A stretch of 64,000 nucleotides of DNA, taken from Thermoplasmata archaeon (GTDB lineage: Archaea > Thermoplasmatota > Thermoplasmata > Lutacidiplasmatales > UBA184). The translations under genes and the position numbers were made by a program. The DNA lies in NCBI GenBank assembly GCA_027315165.1, contig DAHUYN010000006.1, positions 1-64,000 of the forward strand, written 5' to 3'. The number at the start of each line of letters is the position of its first letter. Position 1 is the stretch's first letter. The notes under the pieces were generated by a model that was not told the origin of the DNA, searched no databases, and was given only the letters and a program-made list of their open reading frames with translations. Shown here one piece after another: positions 22,972 to 63,340 of this stretch.

Positions 22972-24948
22972 CTACCTGAGCTCGCTGCGGAACCTCGCGA
23001 TCGCCTCGCGGACCTCGTCGACGGTCGCCCCGTCCTCGAGGGTGGTGAGGTCGCCGACGTCGTCGCGGCCGTCAGCGACGGCCTTGACGACGCGCCGCAT
23101 GATCTTGCCCGAGCGGGTCTTCGGCAGCCGACCGACGAAGTGGACCTCCTCGGGCCGGGCGATCTTCCCGATGAGCGCGCTCACGTGCGCCGCGATCGGG
23201 CCCGCGAGGGCGGGATCCGGCTCGACGCCGCGTCGGAGGACGACGAAGGCGACCGGGACCTCCCCCTTCACCTCGTCCGTGCGGCCGCAGACCGCGGCCT
23301 CCGCGACGCCCGGGTAGGAGAGGATCGCGTCCTCGATCTCGATCGTGCCGAGCCGGTGGCCCGCGACCTTGAGGACCTCATCGGCGCGGCCGAGGAACCA
23401 GAAGTAACCGTCCGCGTCGCGGACCGCGTAGTCACCCGCGTAGTAGGCACCCGGGAACCGGCCGAAGTAGCTCGAGACGTATCGCGCCTCGTCCTCGTGG
23501 AGGCCCAAGAGCATCCCGGGCCACGGCCGGTAGATCACGGCGTAGCCTTTCTCGCCCGGGGCGGCCGGACGCCCCTTTTCGTCGACGACGTCGGCGTCGA
23601 CGCCGGGGAGCGGGTAGGTCGCCGAGCCGGGCTTCATCGGCACGAGGCCGAGACCGGGGGCCGGCGAGATCATGATCCCGCCCGTCTCCGTCTGCCACCA
23701 CGTGTCGACGATCGGGCAGCGCTCCTTCCCGACGACGCGGTAGTACCACTCCCAGACCGACGGGTTGATCGCCTCGCCGACGCTGCCGAGGATGCGGAGC
23801 GAGCTCAGGTCGTGGGCGAGGACCGGCTCGTCGCCGTGGGTCCGTAGGCTCCGGAGCGCCGTCGGGCTCGTGTAGAGCAGGTTCACGCCATAGTGCTCGA
23901 CCATCGACCAGACGCGGTCCGGGGCCGGATGATCGAGCGCGCCCTCGTAGAGCACGCTCGTGAGCCCGAGGCCGAGCGGGCCGAAGACGATGTAGGAGTG
24001 TCCGGTGACCCAGCCGACGTCGGCGGCACACCAGTAGACGTCCTCCGCGCGCGCGTCGAACACCCAGCGCATCGTCGCGAGCGTGTGCACGAGGTAGCCG
24101 CCCGTGCCGTGCACGATCGCCTTCGGGTGGCCCGTCGTGCCGGAGGAGTACAGCAGGAACAGGGGGTGGTCCGAGGGGAGCGGGACCGGCGGCTGCCGTC
24201 GGGGCCCCTCCGAAAGCAGCGTCTCCCACGGGACGTCGCGGCCCGGGACGGAGCCGACGGCGGCGCCGGTCCGGCGGACCACGACGGAGGTCGTCACGGA
24301 CGGCGCCTGCTCGAGGGCCTCGTCGGCGATCGCCTTGAGCGGGACGACGGCGCCGCGCCGATAGCCGCCGTCGGCCGTGACGAGGAGGCGCGCGCCGAGG
24401 CGCCGGATCCGCTCCGCGAGCGCCGACGCCGAGAAGCCGCTGAAGACGGTCGTGAACGGGATCCCGAGCCGCGCGAGCGCGAGCATCGTCACCGGCAGCT
24501 CCGGCACCATCGGGAGGTAGATCGCGGCGTAGTCGCGCTTGGAGAACCCCCGCGCGTGGAGCGCACCGGCGAGCCGCTCGACCTCTCGTGTCAGCTCGGC
24601 GTAGGAGAGGGTCCGTCGCGAGCCGTCCTCGCCCTCCCAGTAGAGGGCGACCTTGTTCCGCGTCGGCCCGTCCAGGTGTCGGTCGAGGCAGTTCTCCGAG
24701 AGGTTCAGCTCGCCGTCGGGGAACCAGCGGGCGTGCGGGAACTCCCCCTCGAGGGTCCTCGTGAACGGCCGGTGCCAGCGGACCAGCTCGCGCGCGAGCG
24801 GACCCCAGAAGGCCCCGACGTCGCGCACCGACTGGCGGTGAAAGCTCCGGTACCGCTCGGTCGGCCAGTAGCGGGCCTCGAACGGGAGGTGCTCGAGCCC
24901 GCCGCCGGGGGGGCGCTCGGGGTCGGGAGGGCGCGGGGGACTCGCCAC
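22972..24948 (-). CDS. acs: Acetyl-CoA synthetase (AMP-forming), Acs type
   Basis: Activates acetate (or a related short acid) through an acyl-adenylate to the CoA thioester. LLYSSGTTGHPKAIVHGTGG is the AMP-binding motif, TWWQTETGG and YYAGDYAVRDADGYFWFLGR follow, and the C-terminal PKTRSGKIMRR holds the lysine that is regulated by acetylation in homologues. At 658 residues it is full length; the start is a GTG. It is the last gene of an operon with a thiolase-like gene and a DUF35 gene (20 bp to the latter), suggesting acyl-CoA chemistry in which Acs supplies the CoA ester. Propionate or another short acid cannot be excluded. Confidence 0.93.
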   Translation of the reverse strand: MASPPRPPDPERPPGGGLEHLPFEARYWPTERYRSFHRQSVRDVGAFWGPLARELVRWHRPFTRTLEGEFPHARWFPDGELNLSENCLDRHLDGPTRNKVALYWEGEDGSRRTLSYAELTREVERLAGALHARGFSKRDYAAIYLPMVPELPVTMLALARLGIPFTTVFSGFSASALAERIRRLGARLLVTADGGYRRGAVVPLKAIADEALEQAPSVTTSVVVRRTGAAVGSVPGRDVPWETLLSEGPRRQPPVPLPSDHPLFLLYSSGTTGHPKAIVHGTGGYLVHTLATMRWVFDARAEDVYWCAADVGWVTGHSYIVFGPLGLGLTSVLYEGALDHPAPDRVWSMVEHYGVNLLYTSPTALRSLRTHGDEPVLAHDLSSLRILGSVGEAINPSVWEWYYRVVGKERCPIVDTWWQTETGGIMISPAPGLGLVPMKPGSATYPLPGVDADVVDEKGRPAAPGEKGYAVIYRPWPGMLLGLHEDEARYVSSYFGRFPGAYYAGDYAVRDADGYFWFLGRADEVLKVAGHRLGTIEIEDAILSYPGVAEAAVCGRTDEVKGEVPVAFVVLRRGVEPDPALAGPIAAHVSALIGKIARPEEVHFVGRLPKTRSGKIMRRVVKAVADGRDDVGDLTTLEDGATVDEVREAIARFRSELR

Positions 24949-24967: not shown

Positions 24968-25540
24968 CTACCTGGAGCGCCCCGCCGGCTTTGGTCCCGG
25001 GGCCTTCGGGGCCGCCTTCGGAACGAACCAGACGTCGGTGATCGAGTACTTCGGGGTCGGCTCGAAGCGGGCCTCGACCGGCAGGCCGATGTAGAGGTCG
25101 GACTGCTTCGCCTCCTTCAGGCGCGCGAGCAGCAGGCTGCCGACGCCGTCGAACTCGACGAGCGCGAGGTTGTACGGGGTCTCCTTGAGGAACGCCTCGC
25201 TGCCGAAGTAGCAGGTCGTCCACGAATGGAGACGACCGGTCGTCGGAAGGTCGAGCCACTCCGTCGGCGCCGTGCACGCCATGCAGTGGCTGCGGGGCGT
25301 CGCGTAGACGAAGCCGCAGCGCGAGTTCGTGCACCGAGAGCCTCGAAGGCGTCCCTCCGCGAGCCCCAGGAAGAACGGCGTGTCCTCCGCGTAGCTGTGG
25401 ATGTACTGGATCGCGTACGGCGACCGGACGATCAGGCTCTCGACGCCCTGCGCGTCGCGGAACAGCGCCACGCCGCTCTTGTCGAGCTCGACCTGGACGT
25501 CGCGGAACTTCGACAGCGTCTTCGGGGCCTTGGCGGGCAT
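24968..25540 (-). CDS. DUF35 Zn-ribbon/OB-fold acyl-CoA-binding protein
   Basis: A 190-residue protein with a zinc ribbon (RCTNSRCGF...HCMACTAP, four Cys) followed by an OB-fold beginning LHSWTTCYFG and containing NLALVEFDGVGSLLLARL. DUF35 proteins bridge thiolase-fold enzymes: in the archaeal acetoacetyl-CoA thiolase/HMG-CoA synthase complex they hold the CoA channel, and in steroid degradation they pair with the aldolase Ltp2. An N-terminal ~60-residue segment precedes the ribbon. The gene starts 1 bp after the thiolase-like stop, so the two products almost certainly form a complex. Confidence 0.88.
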   Translation of the reverse strand: MPAKAPKTLSKFRDVQVELDKSGVALFRDAQGVESLIVRSPYAIQYIHSYAEDTPFFLGLAEGRLRGSRCTNSRCGFVYATPRSHCMACTAPTEWLDLPTTGRLHSWTTCYFGSEAFLKETPYNLALVEFDGVGSLLLARLKEAKQSDLYIGLPVEARFEPTPKYSITDVWFVPKAAPKAPGPKPAGRSR

Positions 25541-25541
25541 G

Positions 25542-26951
25542 TCAGTACCCCCGCTCGAGGATCGAGACGGTCACCGCAGAGCCGGTCCCCGCGTGCGAGT
25601 GGATCGCGCCGCGCTTGGCGTTGGGGATCTGGAGGGTCGCGTCGCCGAAGTGCTTGCCGATCGTGCCCTGCAACTGCCAGAAGGCGAAGACGCCCTGCAT
25701 CAACCCCGTGGCACCGACCGGGTGACCGCAGGCGATGAGGCCGCCCGAGGGGTTCACGGGGATCTCGCCGGCCTTCGGGACCGGGAAGCCGTAGTCGAAC
25801 CCCTTGAGGAACGGCGCACCGGACTCGACGAACCCGTAGCCCTCGCCGTACCGGCAGAGCGCGAGGTCCTCGTAGGTCTGGATCTCGCTCGACGCGTAGG
25901 CGTCGTGGAGCTCGACGAAGTCGAGCTCGCGCTTGGGGTCGGTGATCCCGGCCATCCGATACGCCTCGAGACCGGCCGCGCGGCCGGCCCGGAACGAGTG
26001 GACGCCAGGGTACTCGAGCTTCGTGTAGTCCTCCGCACGCTCGTTCGGCGCGAGCGGGACCTTTCCGAACGGTCGGTCGGCGAGCCGCATCGTGTCCGTC
26101 CCGGTCCCGACGCCCGTGACCTCGATGGGCCGGTCCGTGAACTCCTTGGCGCGCTCCGCGCTGCAGAGGACGGCGACGGCCGCGCCGTCGCTCATCGTGC
26201 AGATCTGCTCGCGCGTGAGCGGGTAGGAGATCATCTCGGAGTTGAGCACGTCCGCGACCGTGAGCCGCTTCGGGTACTGCGCATAGGGGTTGTGGAGCGC
26301 GTTGAGGTGGTTCTTGACCGAGACCAGGCTCATGATCCGGCTCCCCTCGACGGTCGCGAGGCGCTGCGCCTCCCGCTCGTCGGGGATGTGCGCGAACCGG
26401 GTCTTCCGCAGGTACTCGTAGATGTGCCGCTGGACCATCAGCGCGTAGTAGCCCGTGTAGAACCCGCCGAGCGGGAAGTCGAAGTTGGTGTCGCTCGCGA
26501 GGGCGATGAACTCGTTGCCCTTCCAGGTCGCGACCCGGCTCATCGTCTCGTAGCCGGCGGCGAGGCAGACGTCCATCCGGCCGCTCGCCACCGCCTCGAA
26601 CGCCGCCTGGAAGCACTCGCCGCCCGTCGCGCCGCCCCACTCGATGCGGACCGAGCCCTTCGGGTTGAGCCCGAGGTAGTCCTGCACCATGCTCGCGGCC
26701 TTGAGCTGTCTCGAGAAGTGGTCCGAGAAGTAGGAGATCCGGCTCCCGTCGATGCGGTCGACCGAAAGGTTCTCGACGTCCTTGACGGCGTAGTCGTAGG
26801 CGCGGCGGACCATCAGTCGGAAGTCCATCGCGGGATGCGCCTTCGCGAACTTCGTCACGCCGCCGGTGACCATGTAGACGCGGCGACTCGGCTTGCGCCG
26901 AGGGGCGGCGGTCGCGGGGGAGGCGCTCGTAGGCTTCGCTCGGTCGGTCAC
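25542..26951 (-). CDS. Thiolase-fold protein without catalytic cysteines (SCP2-thiolase/Ltp2-like)
   Basis: A 469-residue thiolase-superfamily protein. Conserved parts include VYMVTGGVTKFAK, SDGAAVAVL, VELHDAYASSE and LIACGHPVGATG (catalytic His). At the place of the nucleophilic Cys (VENACASG in thiolases) it reads IEWGGATGG, and the C-terminal Cys motif is HSHAGTG; both cysteines are gone. This pattern is seen in Ltp2-type retro-aldolases that work with a DUF35 partner, so carbon-carbon lyase chemistry or a scaffold role is more likely than thiolysis. It starts (GTG) with a ~25-residue Ala/Pro/Arg leader and heads the operon with DUF35 and Acs. Confidence 0.82.
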   Translation of the reverse strand: MTDRAKPTSASPATAAPRRKPSRRVYMVTGGVTKFAKAHPAMDFRLMVRRAYDYAVKDVENLSVDRIDGSRISYFSDHFSRQLKAASMVQDYLGLNPKGSVRIEWGGATGGECFQAAFEAVASGRMDVCLAAGYETMSRVATWKGNEFIALASDTNFDFPLGGFYTGYYALMVQRHIYEYLRKTRFAHIPDEREAQRLATVEGSRIMSLVSVKNHLNALHNPYAQYPKRLTVADVLNSEMISYPLTREQICTMSDGAAVAVLCSAERAKEFTDRPIEVTGVGTGTDTMRLADRPFGKVPLAPNERAEDYTKLEYPGVHSFRAGRAAGLEAYRMAGITDPKRELDFVELHDAYASSEIQTYEDLALCRYGEGYGFVESGAPFLKGFDYGFPVPKAGEIPVNPSGGLIACGHPVGATGLMQGVFAFWQLQGTIGKHFGDATLQIPNAKRGAIHSHAGTGSAVTVSILERGY

Positions 26952-60251: not shown

Positions 60252-61532
60252 CTAGGGGCGCCGCGCGAGCACCTTGCGGCCGTAGCGCCACTCGCCGTCC
60301 ATCGGATAGAGCCGACGCAGGCGCGTCGTCACCGTCGCGCCGATCGGCGGGGCCTCGCCGGGAGCGTCGGCGACCGGAAGGGTGACGCGAACCCCCTCCG
60401 AGAGCTCGAGAAGGACGACCCCGTAGCCGCCGCTCTCGGAGACGAGCGGGTCGAACTCCGTCGGCTGCGCGCCCGGGGCCACGACGGTCGCGGCGACGAC
60501 CGTGCCGTCCCGCGGCAGCGCGACGCGCGTGAGGCCGTCGACCGCCCGGCAGCGGCGGCAGAGCCCGCGGGGCGGGAAGGTGACCGAGGCACACCGCGAG
60601 CACCGCTCCCCTTCGAAGCGCCAGCGTGCCGGAAGGTTCTCGAGATACCGAGGTCTCGGGACGTAGGCCCCCTCCGAGACCGCCGTCGCAAGGTCGGGCT
60701 CGGACCGCGCGTCCCTCAAGAGCGTCGGGGGCGCGACCGGCTCCCATGCGCCGTTCCAGGCGACCGGGCCGCCCAGCCGAACCCCGAGGAAGTGAGTCGC
60801 CTCGACCCCGACGGTCGCGAGGATCCCTTCGCCGCCCGGCCCGAGCCGCTCGACGAGACGGCGGAGTCCCAGCGCCGTCGGGACCGTCGGCGCCGCTCCG
60901 AGGCCGACCGGAGCGGCCGGACTCGTCTCGGCGCTCGCCTCTGGCTGTTGTCGGCGCCAGGCGGAGAGAAGAACGGGGGGCGCCTCTCTCGCGACCAGCT
61001 GCAGCGCGAGGGCGCTCGACGGACTCGCGAGGCCGGTCGAGGCCGTCGCCGCGCGGCACCAGGCCTCCGCGTCGGGGGGATGGTGGGCCGCGTGACGACG
61101 TCCGCCGTGCTCCAACACCGAGAGCCCCACGCCCTCGGCGATCTCGAAAGCGACCCCTCCGGCCCCGCTCTCCGGATGCGCGGTCGCCGGCGTCGAGGGG
61201 TCGACGACCGCGACGAGCGCGCGGCCGTCGGAGGGCGCCCGGCTCGCGAGCGCGAGGGCCGCCGCGAGCGCGCCGGGCCCCTCCCCGTGGTGCCGCACCG
61301 CGACGTGAGGAACGCCGAGAAGCTCGGGCAGCGCGGCCTCCGCCTCGGCGTTGTAGCGGCCGACGAGGTCGAGCGCGACGACCGGTCCGGCGGCGCCGCC
61401 GGGGCGGTCGACGAGCGCTTCGAGCAGCTCGGCGGCGATCGTGACAGGGTCCTCGTCCGGCCCCTCGACCTCGAGAGCGCCGGTGCGCCAGCGGCTCCGG
61501 TAGGCGGTCCCGGCCACGATCGCCCGCGCCAT
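60252..61532 (-). CDS. Degenerate HMG-CoA-synthase-like domain fused to DUF35
   Basis: A 426-residue fusion. The N-terminal ~280 residues follow archaeal HMG-CoA synthase (GPDEDPVTIAAELLEAL is its early signature), but the region of the catalytic cysteine (LEFACKAG in enzymes) reads VRHHGEGPG, so the nucleophile is gone. From ERCSRCASVTFPPRGLCRRC a DUF35 zinc ribbon and OB-fold with TVVAATVVAPGAQP and PLVSESGGYGVVLLEL follow. In archaea HMGCS, thiolase and DUF35 form a channelled complex. Here a dead synthase domain fused to the linker lies 1 bp downstream of a thiolase, suggesting a scaffold. A true HMGCS should be elsewhere. Confidence 0.75.
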   Translation of the reverse strand: MARAIVAGTAYRSRWRTGALEVEGPDEDPVTIAAELLEALVDRPGGAAGPVVALDLVGRYNAEAEAALPELLGVPHVAVRHHGEGPGALAAALALASRAPSDGRALVAVVDPSTPATAHPESGAGGVAFEIAEGVGLSVLEHGGRRHAAHHPPDAEAWCRAATASTGLASPSSALALQLVAREAPPVLLSAWRRQQPEASAETSPAAPVGLGAAPTVPTALGLRRLVERLGPGGEGILATVGVEATHFLGVRLGGPVAWNGAWEPVAPPTLLRDARSEPDLATAVSEGAYVPRPRYLENLPARWRFEGERCSRCASVTFPPRGLCRRCRAVDGLTRVALPRDGTVVAATVVAPGAQPTEFDPLVSESGGYGVVLLELSEGVRVTLPVADAPGEAPPIGATVTTRLRRLYPMDGEWRYGRKVLARRP

Positions 61533-61533
61533 C

Positions 61534-62700
61534 TCAGGCCACCGAGAAGATCGTCACGGTCGCGCTCGCCCCCGAGCCCCCGACGTTGTGCGTGAGCGCT
61601 CGCTCCGCGCCCCGCACCTGGCGGGCGCCCGCCGCCTGACGCAGTTGTTGAAAGACCTCGTAGGCCTGGCTCGCCCCGGTCGCGCCGATCGGATGGCCCT
61701 TGGCCTTGAGACCCCCGTCCGGGTTGACGGGGAAGGCGCCGCCGAGCCGGGTGGCGCCGGAGTGTGTGAGCGCCGCCGCTTCGCCCGGCGCGGCGAAGCC
61801 GAGGTCCTCGAGCGCGAGGAGCTCGGCGATCGTGAAGCAGTCGTGCACCTCGGCGAACGAGATCTGTCGCCGCTCGAGGCCGGAGCGCCGGAACGCCTCC
61901 TCGGCGGCCCAGCGCGTGGCCGCGAGGCTCGTCAGGGACGGCCGCTCCTGCACGGCGAGGTAGTCCGACCCGGCCCCGGTCGCCGCGACGTAGACGGGCG
62001 TGTCGGTGTAGGCCCGGGCCCGATCCTCGCCCGCCAGGACGAGCGCGACGGCGCCGTCGGAGACCGGGCAGCAGTCCAGGAGCCGCAGGGGGTCGGCGAC
62101 GCGCGGGGAGGCAAGGACCTGCTCGACGGTCACCGGCTTACGGAACTGCGCGTTCGGGTTCGCGACGGCGTGGGCGTGGTTCTTCACCGCGACCTCCGCG
62201 AGCGCCTCGCGGGAGGTCCCGTACTCGTGCTGATGTCGCGAGGCCAAGAGCGCATAGACGCCCGCGAACGTGAGGCCGGCGAGCCGCTCCCACTCCGTGT
62301 CCCCCGAGACGCCCAGCCAGTAGCGGCGGCGGGTCGGCGTCGGGTCCGTCATCTTCTCGAGGCCGACGACCAGCGCCACGTCGGTGGCGTCGCTCTCGAT
62401 TGCCCGGACGGCGTCCCGGAGCGCGAACCCCGCGGAGGCGCAGGCGTTCTCGACCCGGGTCACGGGCGCGGAGACGAGGCCGGCCTCCTCCGCGACGACC
62501 GCGGAGACGTTGCCGAGCTGCCAGCCCGAGAACCCCAGCGTCCCGACGTACGCCTCCCGCACGTCGCTCGGGGCGAGACCCTTGTCGACGCTCGCGAAGG
62601 CGCCCGAGATCGCGGTCCGGAGGAGCGCCCGCGGTCCCTCTGCGAGGGCGCCGAAGCGCGTGTGGCCTGCGCCGACGATCGCTGCCCGCCGCCGACCCAC
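61534..62700 (-). CDS. Thiolase (SCP2-thiolase/archaeal acetyl-CoA acetyltransferase type)
   Basis: A 388-residue thiolase with an intact nucleophile: VENACASAG (Cys about residue 88). The His lies in KGHPIGATGASQ, and the family ends with LTHNVGGSGASATVTIF, the usual Cys-less archaeal version of the C-terminal motif. It catalyses acetoacetyl-CoA formation or acyl-CoA thiolysis. I trimmed the start to GTG 62700; a CTTTTATG element lies about 45 nt upstream. With the downstream HMGCS/DUF35 fusion it forms a two-gene operon. Confidence 0.9.
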   Translation of the reverse strand: MGRRRAAIVGAGHTRFGALAEGPRALLRTAISGAFASVDKGLAPSDVREAYVGTLGFSGWQLGNVSAVVAEEAGLVSAPVTRVENACASAGFALRDAVRAIESDATDVALVVGLEKMTDPTPTRRRYWLGVSGDTEWERLAGLTFAGVYALLASRHQHEYGTSREALAEVAVKNHAHAVANPNAQFRKPVTVEQVLASPRVADPLRLLDCCPVSDGAVALVLAGEDRARAYTDTPVYVAATGAGSDYLAVQERPSLTSLAATRWAAEEAFRRSGLERRQISFAEVHDCFTIAELLALEDLGFAAPGEAAALTHSGATRLGGAFPVNPDGGLKAKGHPIGATGASQAYEVFQQLRQAAGARQVRGAERALTHNVGGSGASATVTIFSVA

Positions 62701-62741
62701 GCTGCGCCCCCGAAGCCGCTTTACGCGCTCACTCCTGCGTC

Positions 62742-62749
62742 CATAAAAG
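62742..62749. promoter_or_regulatory. Shared TATA-like element between the thiolase and ubiX
   Basis: CATAAAAG (plus) / CTTTTATG (minus) lies between the divergent genes. It would place a start near 62719 for the thiolase and near 62772 for ubiX. Confidence 0.4.
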
Positions 62750-62764
62750 GGCGAGGCTGGGAAG

Positions 62765-63340
62765 CTGTCCGACGAACCTCCGATCGTCCTCGGCATCACG
62801 GGTGCGAGCGGCGCGCCGATCGCGCGGGCCGCGCTCGAGGCGCTCCACGAGGCCCGCGTGCCCGTCGCGCTCGTCGTCTCGAAGGGGGCCGTTCCCGTGC
62901 TGTTGGAGGAGTGCGGCGTCGGCGTCGAGGCGCTCGCCCCGCTCGCCTCCGTCGTCTACGACGACGGCGACCTCGCGAGCCCGATCGCCTCCGGCTCGCG
63001 CCGCACCCGGGCCATGGCGATCGTCCCCTGCTCGACGAACACGCTCGCCAAGGTCGCGCTCGGCCTTTCGGACACGCTCCTCACGCGGGCCGCCCAGGTC
63101 CATCTCAAGGAGCACCGCCCCCTGGTCCTCGTGCCGCGGGAGACGCCGCTCTCCGTCGTGGCGCTCCGCCACCTGACGACGCTCGCCGAGCAGGGGGTCG
63201 TCATCCTCCCGGCCTCGGGCGCCTACTACACGCATCCCCAGAGCGTCGACGACATCACGCGGTTCCTGGCGGGCCGCCTCCTCGACCACCTCGCGGTGCC
63301 GCACCGGCTCTACCGAGGGTGGCGCGAGGGGGAGGCGTAG
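62765..63340 (+). CDS. ubiX: Flavin prenyltransferase UbiX; start codon unclear
   Basis: Attaches a dimethylallyl group to FMN to make prenylated FMN, the cofactor of UbiD-type decarboxylases. IVLGITGASGAPIARAALEAL is the N-terminal FMN site, PCSTNTLAKVALGLSDTLLTRAAQVHLKE and RPLVLVPRETPLS the prenyl-phosphate part, and PASGAYYTHPQSVDDITRF the end; all standard. The ORF-track start (62858) is 93 nt too late, since the FMN motif lies upstream in frame. After the TAA at 62744 there is no ATG, GTG or TTG before this motif; a CTG at 62765 is used here. UbiD is not in the window. Confidence 0.88.
   Translation: MSDEPPIVLGITGASGAPIARAALEALHEARVPVALVVSKGAVPVLLEECGVGVEALAPLASVVYDDGDLASPIASGSRRTRAMAIVPCSTNTLAKVALGLSDTLLTRAAQVHLKEHRPLVLVPRETPLSVVALRHLTTLAEQGVVILPASGAYYTHPQSVDDITRFLAGRLLDHLAVPHRLYRGWREGEA

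Follow-up and report, generated by a model that had tools for sequence, protein, structure and literature searches.

A thiolase-fold protein of Thermoplasmatota without catalytic cysteines, encoded beside a DUF35 protein, as a possible histidine-based carbon-carbon lyase

The gene at positions 25542-26951 of the window (the whole 64,000-nucleotide stretch of archaeal DNA that was analysed) encodes a thiolase-fold protein from which both catalytic cysteines are gone and which is paired with a DUF35 protein. Our tentative reading, to which we give a probability of about 45%, is that the pair is a cysteine-independent carbon-carbon lyase, most likely a retro-aldolase acting on 3-hydroxyacyl-CoA by means of a new, histidine-based active site. 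Because the cysteines are missing, neither an acyl-enzyme nor thiolysis would be possible by the known mechanism. Retro-aldol cleavage is favoured because the CoA site, two histidines capable of polarising or protonating and the DUF35 partner remain, and because the characterised relatives without a nucleophile cysteine carry out this reaction. The genes concerned are the following (positions in the window).

25542..26951, minus strand: thiolase-fold protein without catalytic cysteines, PRK06365-like, 469 residues (open reading frame, GTG start)
24968..25540, minus strand: DUF35 protein with a zinc ribbon (four cysteines) and an OB fold, 190 residues (PF01796, 54.6 bits)
22972..24948, minus strand: acs, acetate--CoA ligase, 658 residues (TIGR02188, 835 bits, cut-off 725)

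The best-matching model for the thiolase-like protein, over its full length, is PRK06365 (NCBIfam, NF004982), on which it scores 627 bits for a cut-off of 695. Two relatives likewise fall just under this cut-off (L139, 691 bits; L147, 672 bits), and homologs across Thermoplasmatota score between 343 and 691 bits. The PRK06365 family is already catalogued, but as a model without tested function, and no function in Thermoplasma was found in the literature searched. Pfam thiolase domains, including Thiolase_C_1, were also matched. An AlphaFold model built with 43 sequences reached a pLDDT of 88.7 and a pTM of 0.90, with lower certainty at residues 141-170 (58-68 per block). Its best PDB match was the archaeal thiolase 6esq (TM 0.78/0.93, the latter normalised by target), followed by ST0096 and a Pyrococcus thiolase, with good matches also to Sal and Ltp2. 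As modelled, the protein has a thiolase fold. Two insertions, at residues about 182-205 and 383-394, are common to its close relatives in families f1 and f9 and missing elsewhere.

The active site was aligned with that of the genome's own cysteine thiolase (VENACAS, HDCF, KGHPIGATG, THNVGG), which is encoded in the same window.

61534..62799, minus strand: ordinary acetoacetyl-CoA thiolase (ENACAS, HDCF), used for internal comparison
60252..61532, minus strand: HMG-CoA synthase-like gene with a DUF35-like C-terminal part (open reading frame; PF01796 at 20.9 bits, below the cut-off)

The name HMG-CoA synthase-like comes from reading the sequence and from the position of the gene, which follows the thiolase gene by 1 nt, as if two parts of the three-part archaeal complex had been fused (60252-62799). 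The corresponding segments of the cysteine-less protein are these.

26619..26645, minus strand: IEWGGATGG, residues 103-111, once the nucleophile loop (aligned with the cysteine thiolase of this genome)
25896..25907, minus strand: HDAY, residues 349-352, equivalent of HDCF in SCP2 and archaeal thiolases and of YDHF in Ltp2 (alignments)
25719..25727, minus strand: GHP, residues 409-411, including His410 at the position of Ltp2 Tyr344 (invariant, 43 of 43; alignment with 6ok1)
25587..25598, minus strand: SHAG, residues 452-455, including His453 (histidine in 38 of 43 rows)

Three motifs had been singled out in the original prediction, IEWGGATGG (residues 103-111), GHPVGATG (409-416) and HSHAGTG (451-457), and all of them are present as described. 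The accompanying claim that both active cysteines are lost stands as far as the loss is concerned: Gly107 occupies the column of the nucleophile cysteine of thiolases, and Ala351 of HDAY that of the second, acid-base cysteine of HDCF. It does not stand for the place of the second site, which had been put in HSHAGTG. This segment aligns with THNVGG of the genome's own thiolase and QHNIG of SCP2 thiolases, so that there was no cysteine to lose at this point. In thiolases of this branch the second catalytic cysteine lies in HDCF, as discussed for SCP2 thiolases in PMC12329534; it is nevertheless gone, since HDCF reads HDAY here.

A cysteine was found at neither catalytic position in any of the 43 aligned proteins (identity down to about 36%), and 18 further genomes gave the same reading at both positions, which excludes chance or a sequencing error. 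Gly106, Gly107, Tyr169 and His410 are invariant among the 43 proteins, while Asp350 and His453 are mostly retained in relatives with identity as low as about 40%. The main clade (38 of 43 rows) retains His78, Tyr165, Tyr168 and His453, none of which is found in a second cysteine-less group; His453 is a feature of the main clade alone and has no equivalent in cysteine thiolases. Judged by spacing, His78 may be the counterpart of PhlC His56 and Sal His59, which both lie near the active site. The alignment check suggested with the original prediction, for another cysteine in the active site, covered Cys113, Cys251, Cys366 and Cys408 by alignment column and brought out no conserved, clade-specific one: Cys113, Cys366 and Cys408 are not conserved among relatives, and Cys251 is shared with ordinary thiolases (CPVSDGA) and replaced by serine or alanine in some members. 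The loss of both cysteines, with no conserved substitute, counts in favour of a retro-aldolase.

The column of residue 349 holds histidine in 38 of the 43 proteins, tyrosine in three and phenylalanine in two. Tyrosine replaces His349 in a YDAY/YDSY sub-lineage (L139, L140, L141, L192, L193, L194, L197, L198, L199), where it resembles the catalytic tyrosine of Ltp2 and Sal. The variant goes together with GHA in place of GHP and is carried by six of the 18 further genomes. Two divergent members (L153:5314-6597 and L154:5320-6606) have FT or FA for HD, and thus no His349; they retain Gly107, His410 and the C-terminal histidine and possibly catalyse yet another reaction.

A gap of 1 nt separates the thiolase-like gene from the DUF35 gene that follows it. 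The product of the DUF35 gene also matches PF12172, just below the cut-off, and its closest solved DUF35 match in the PDB is chain E of 6esq, the DUF35 subunit of the archaeal thiolase complex. A DUF35 gene adjoins the thiolase-like gene in 40 of 40 diverse loci and, among close relatives, in 115 of 119 loci belonging to the order; the remaining four include three with little sequence downstream. The pairing with DUF35 that had been predicted is thus near-universal in the clade, and this adjacency is a second point in favour of a retro-aldolase.

The acs gene lies 19 nt after the DUF35 gene, and its presence in the operon had been taken as a functional clue. This part of the original prediction was not borne out: among the loci of the order with at least 2.6 kb beyond the pair, acs stands behind it in 6 of 63. 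The same direct count ruled out an impression from clustering, in which acs seemed to neighbour the pair everywhere in the order. An ACS-like gene is found just upstream in four loci of one other family.

The proposed link to acyl-CoA metabolism was supported. Among 251 genomes of the class, 122 have the thiolase-like gene and 154 an acyl-CoA dehydrogenase; the dehydrogenase is present in 122 of the 122 genomes with the gene, and the gene in 0 of the 97 genomes without dehydrogenase, these genomes being related and the 122 not independent events. Directly upstream and on the same strand, an acyl-CoA dehydrogenase is encoded in several families (two loci each of f9 and f15, as well as f21 and f46). 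Other neighbours are CoA-transferase (f38, f51), 3-hydroxyacyl-CoA dehydrogenase with thiolase (f26, f46), citrate synthase (f21) and, in some families, acyl-CoA ligase, while 14 of 35 main-clade loci have none of the searched-for genes within 6 kb. The co-occurrence and the acyl-CoA genes nearby in several families both speak for a retro-aldolase. Above cut-off, the genome itself has six matches to acyl-CoA dehydrogenase and seven to enoyl-CoA hydratase (PF00378); no MaoC was found in it, and no hydratase adjoins the thiolase-like gene here. The order has been credited with beta-oxidation and propionate use by a published analysis (PMC9287336).

The pair had been assigned to the Ltp2-ChsH2 type, an assignment that finds no support in that form. 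The Ltp2-ChsH2(DUF35) steroid side-chain aldolase (6ok1; PRK07855) likewise has a thiolase fold without cysteines, a glycine at the nucleophile position and a DUF35 partner. The residue roles of Ltp2 were taken from PMC12329534 and the 6ok1 sequence. When IpfD was aligned with 6ok1, Ltp2 Tyr294 fell in YDHF and Tyr344, by counting, in GEAYIHG; in the columns of these two tyrosines the window protein has His349 and His410, and therefore the Ltp2 catalytic pair is missing from it. Furthermore, it scores 64.2 bits on the Ltp2-type model PRK07855, for a cut-off of 469, and its gene, unlike that of Ltp2, has no steroid or MaoC context. By sequence, the window protein is not a member of the Ltp2 family. 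IpfD, encoded beside an OB-fold gene on the Rhizorhabdus plasmid pIBU218, is a PRK07855 member (583 bits, same cut-off), and in ibuprofen degradation the product of ipfDE is considered to free propionyl-CoA by a retro-aldolase step (PMC9195938). Other plasmid-borne proteins, bacterial and haloarchaeal, are also encoded beside OB-fold genes (L190:2489-3640, L191:2477-3643); they have the Gly-type loop, YDAF or YDSF and a retained HP motif, and the structure 4u4e (Sphaerobacter) has YDSF and HP as they do.

In the Sal-Shy(DUF35) bile acid aldolase (9myr), glycine likewise stands in place of the nucleophile cysteine and the partner is a DUF35 protein; the catalytic roles fall to Tyr302 and Cys304 (PMC12329534). 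These residues belong to YDCY, which reads HDAY in the window protein, so that the Sal-type pair is not found in it. The distance from His59 to Gly89 in Sal is similar to that from His78 to Gly107 here, a likeness of spacing only. Both Ltp2 and Sal act with MaoC/DUF35 hydratases (PMC12329534). The closest fold, that of the 6esq acetoacetyl-CoA thiolase/DUF35/HMG-CoA synthase complex, has both the nucleophile and the HDCF cysteine and forms a three-part complex; an ordinary version of it is encoded in the window itself (60252-62799). An archaeal thiolase-like protein with 27% identity to the window protein, ST0096 of Sulfolobus tokodaii (4yzo), likewise has no cysteine in its nucleophile loop (SGSGG). 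The Friedel-Crafts acylase PhlABC is also composed of thiolase-like and DUF35 subunits, but depends on Cys88.

Relatives at 76-87% identity are present in 88 of 101 genomes of the sampled family, and in 36 of the 36 of good quality. The window protein belongs to a Thermoplasmatota clade around PRK06365, in which every sequence examined lacks both cysteines and has His410. All sampled Thermoplasmatota Gly-type proteins formed one clade in the tree (100/99), with a main clade of 22 rows (98/94). The window protein grouped with archaeal and SCP2-type proteins, and IpfD and other plasmid-borne proteins without the nucleophile cysteine formed a separate group (100/100). The tree thus suggests that cysteine was lost independently of Ltp2, a hint that was not upheld by the AU test, in which a single clade of all Gly-type proteins, including the Ltp2-like lyases, was not rejected (p-AU 0.53).

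In a sister cysteine-less group (L164-L168; TTGGATGG, HDAF, HSIGG), DUF35 and acyl-CoA ligase genes lie nearby, and a MaoC hydratase gene directly adjoins the thiolase-like gene in four of five loci; these loci are a good candidate hydratase-aldolase operon. A second cysteine-less thiolase-like gene was found on another contig (C8) of the genome studied (L173:4770-6707). It has serine at the nucleophile position (AASATG) and HDAF, adjoins another DUF35 gene and sits on a long branch, so that its placement is unsure.

We infer the complex, the reaction, its substrate and direction and the role of each residue as follows. The thiolase-like and DUF35 proteins would make up a single enzyme, in which two DUF35 subunits probably flank a thiolase-fold dimer. 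In this enzyme a carbon-carbon bond of an acyl-CoA would be made or, more likely, broken without a covalent acyl-enzyme. Acyl-CoA dehydrogenase and enoyl-CoA hydratase would supply the 3-hydroxyacyl-CoA, and retro-aldol cleavage would yield an aldehyde or ketone and acetyl- or propionyl-CoA. His349 and His410 may take the roles of Ltp2 Tyr294 and Tyr344 (the first as base acting on the hydroxyl, the second as acid towards the enolate), and the oxyanion would be held by the Gly107 backbone and the SHAGTG loop. Such a retro-aldolase is favoured by the glycine at the nucleophile position, as in Sal and Ltp2. By analogy, it is also supported by the MaoC genes beside the sister group in four of five loci, which recall Ltp2 and Sal, and by the proven or proposed cysteine-less, DUF35-paired relatives (Ltp2, Sal, IpfDE), which are retro-aldolases. 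Against it stand the absence of both the Ltp2 tyrosine dyad and the Sal Tyr-Cys pair, the lack of an adjoining hydratase in this genome, the sporadic adjacency of acs, the complete loss of His349 in L153 and L154, and the fact that no member has a known activity.

The reaction might also run in the making direction: independently of cysteine, the enolate of an acyl-CoA would be condensed with an acyl donor, an aldehyde or a ketone in a reaction of the aldol or Claisen type. An aldol reaction can run either way, carbon-carbon bonds are formed by the DUF35-containing complexes of PhlABC and of archaeal HMG-CoA synthesis, and acs could supply acetyl-CoA in this window, ACS-like genes being found upstream in some other families. 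However, both complexes use cysteine, the acs linkage is sporadic and the finding that the gene never occurs without acyl-CoA dehydrogenase in the genomes of the class speaks for breakdown, so that we consider condensation unlikely.

Since cysteine-less thiolase folds can still stabilise an enolate, the protein could instead decarboxylate malonyl-CoA or a 3-oxoacid CoA ester, or act as a C-acyl hydrolase. The two histidines that polarise the thioester carbonyl are retained, and TbSLP, a cysteine-less relative from trypanosomes, decarboxylates malonyl-CoA, although very slowly (PMC12329534). This activity is quite improbable, as no carboxylase or malonyl-CoA gene is prominent in the neighbourhoods examined and Sal, also without the nucleophile cysteine, does not have it (PMC12329534). 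A non-catalytic, CoA-binding scaffold for DUF35 and other enzymes would agree with the loss of the cysteines and with the role of DUF35 proteins in joining thiolase-like subunits into larger complexes; it too has a low probability, because a mere scaffold would not need the invariant His410 and Gly107, nor Asp350 and His453, largely kept to about 40% identity. A small share is left for other reactions. A true thiolase with another residue as nucleophile is very improbable in spite of the closeness of the fold to 6esq, since the active site has no conserved cysteine and three other cysteine-bearing thiolases of the genome are available for this task.

The retro-aldolase reading can be narrowed to a version that we regard as a long shot, in which the pair would be a histidine-based archaeal retro-aldolase for tertiary (3-methyl-branched) 3-hydroxyacyl-CoAs, serving a carboxylase-free breakdown of branched-chain or isoprenoid acids. 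Tertiary 3-hydroxyacyl-CoAs cannot be oxidised to ketones. Ltp2, which cleaves the tertiary C17 alcohol of steroids, would be the model for such a cleavage.

DUF35-paired lyases without the nucleophile cysteine are already known. As far as we found, the active site of His-His(-His) type is new, and so are its distribution across Thermoplasmatota and the tie to acyl-CoA dehydrogenase. The gene is found throughout the soil archaea of the order and in much of the phylum, where it goes under the name of thiolase domain protein and can easily be miscounted as a thiolase in metabolic reconstructions, although unable to act as one by the known mechanism. The YDAY sub-lineage provides a natural comparison of histidine with tyrosine at one catalytic position. 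If the pair is indeed a carbon-carbon lyase, these archaea would possess a carbon-carbon cleaving step that is absent from pathway maps, and the thiolase fold would have one more cysteine-free solution, based on histidine.
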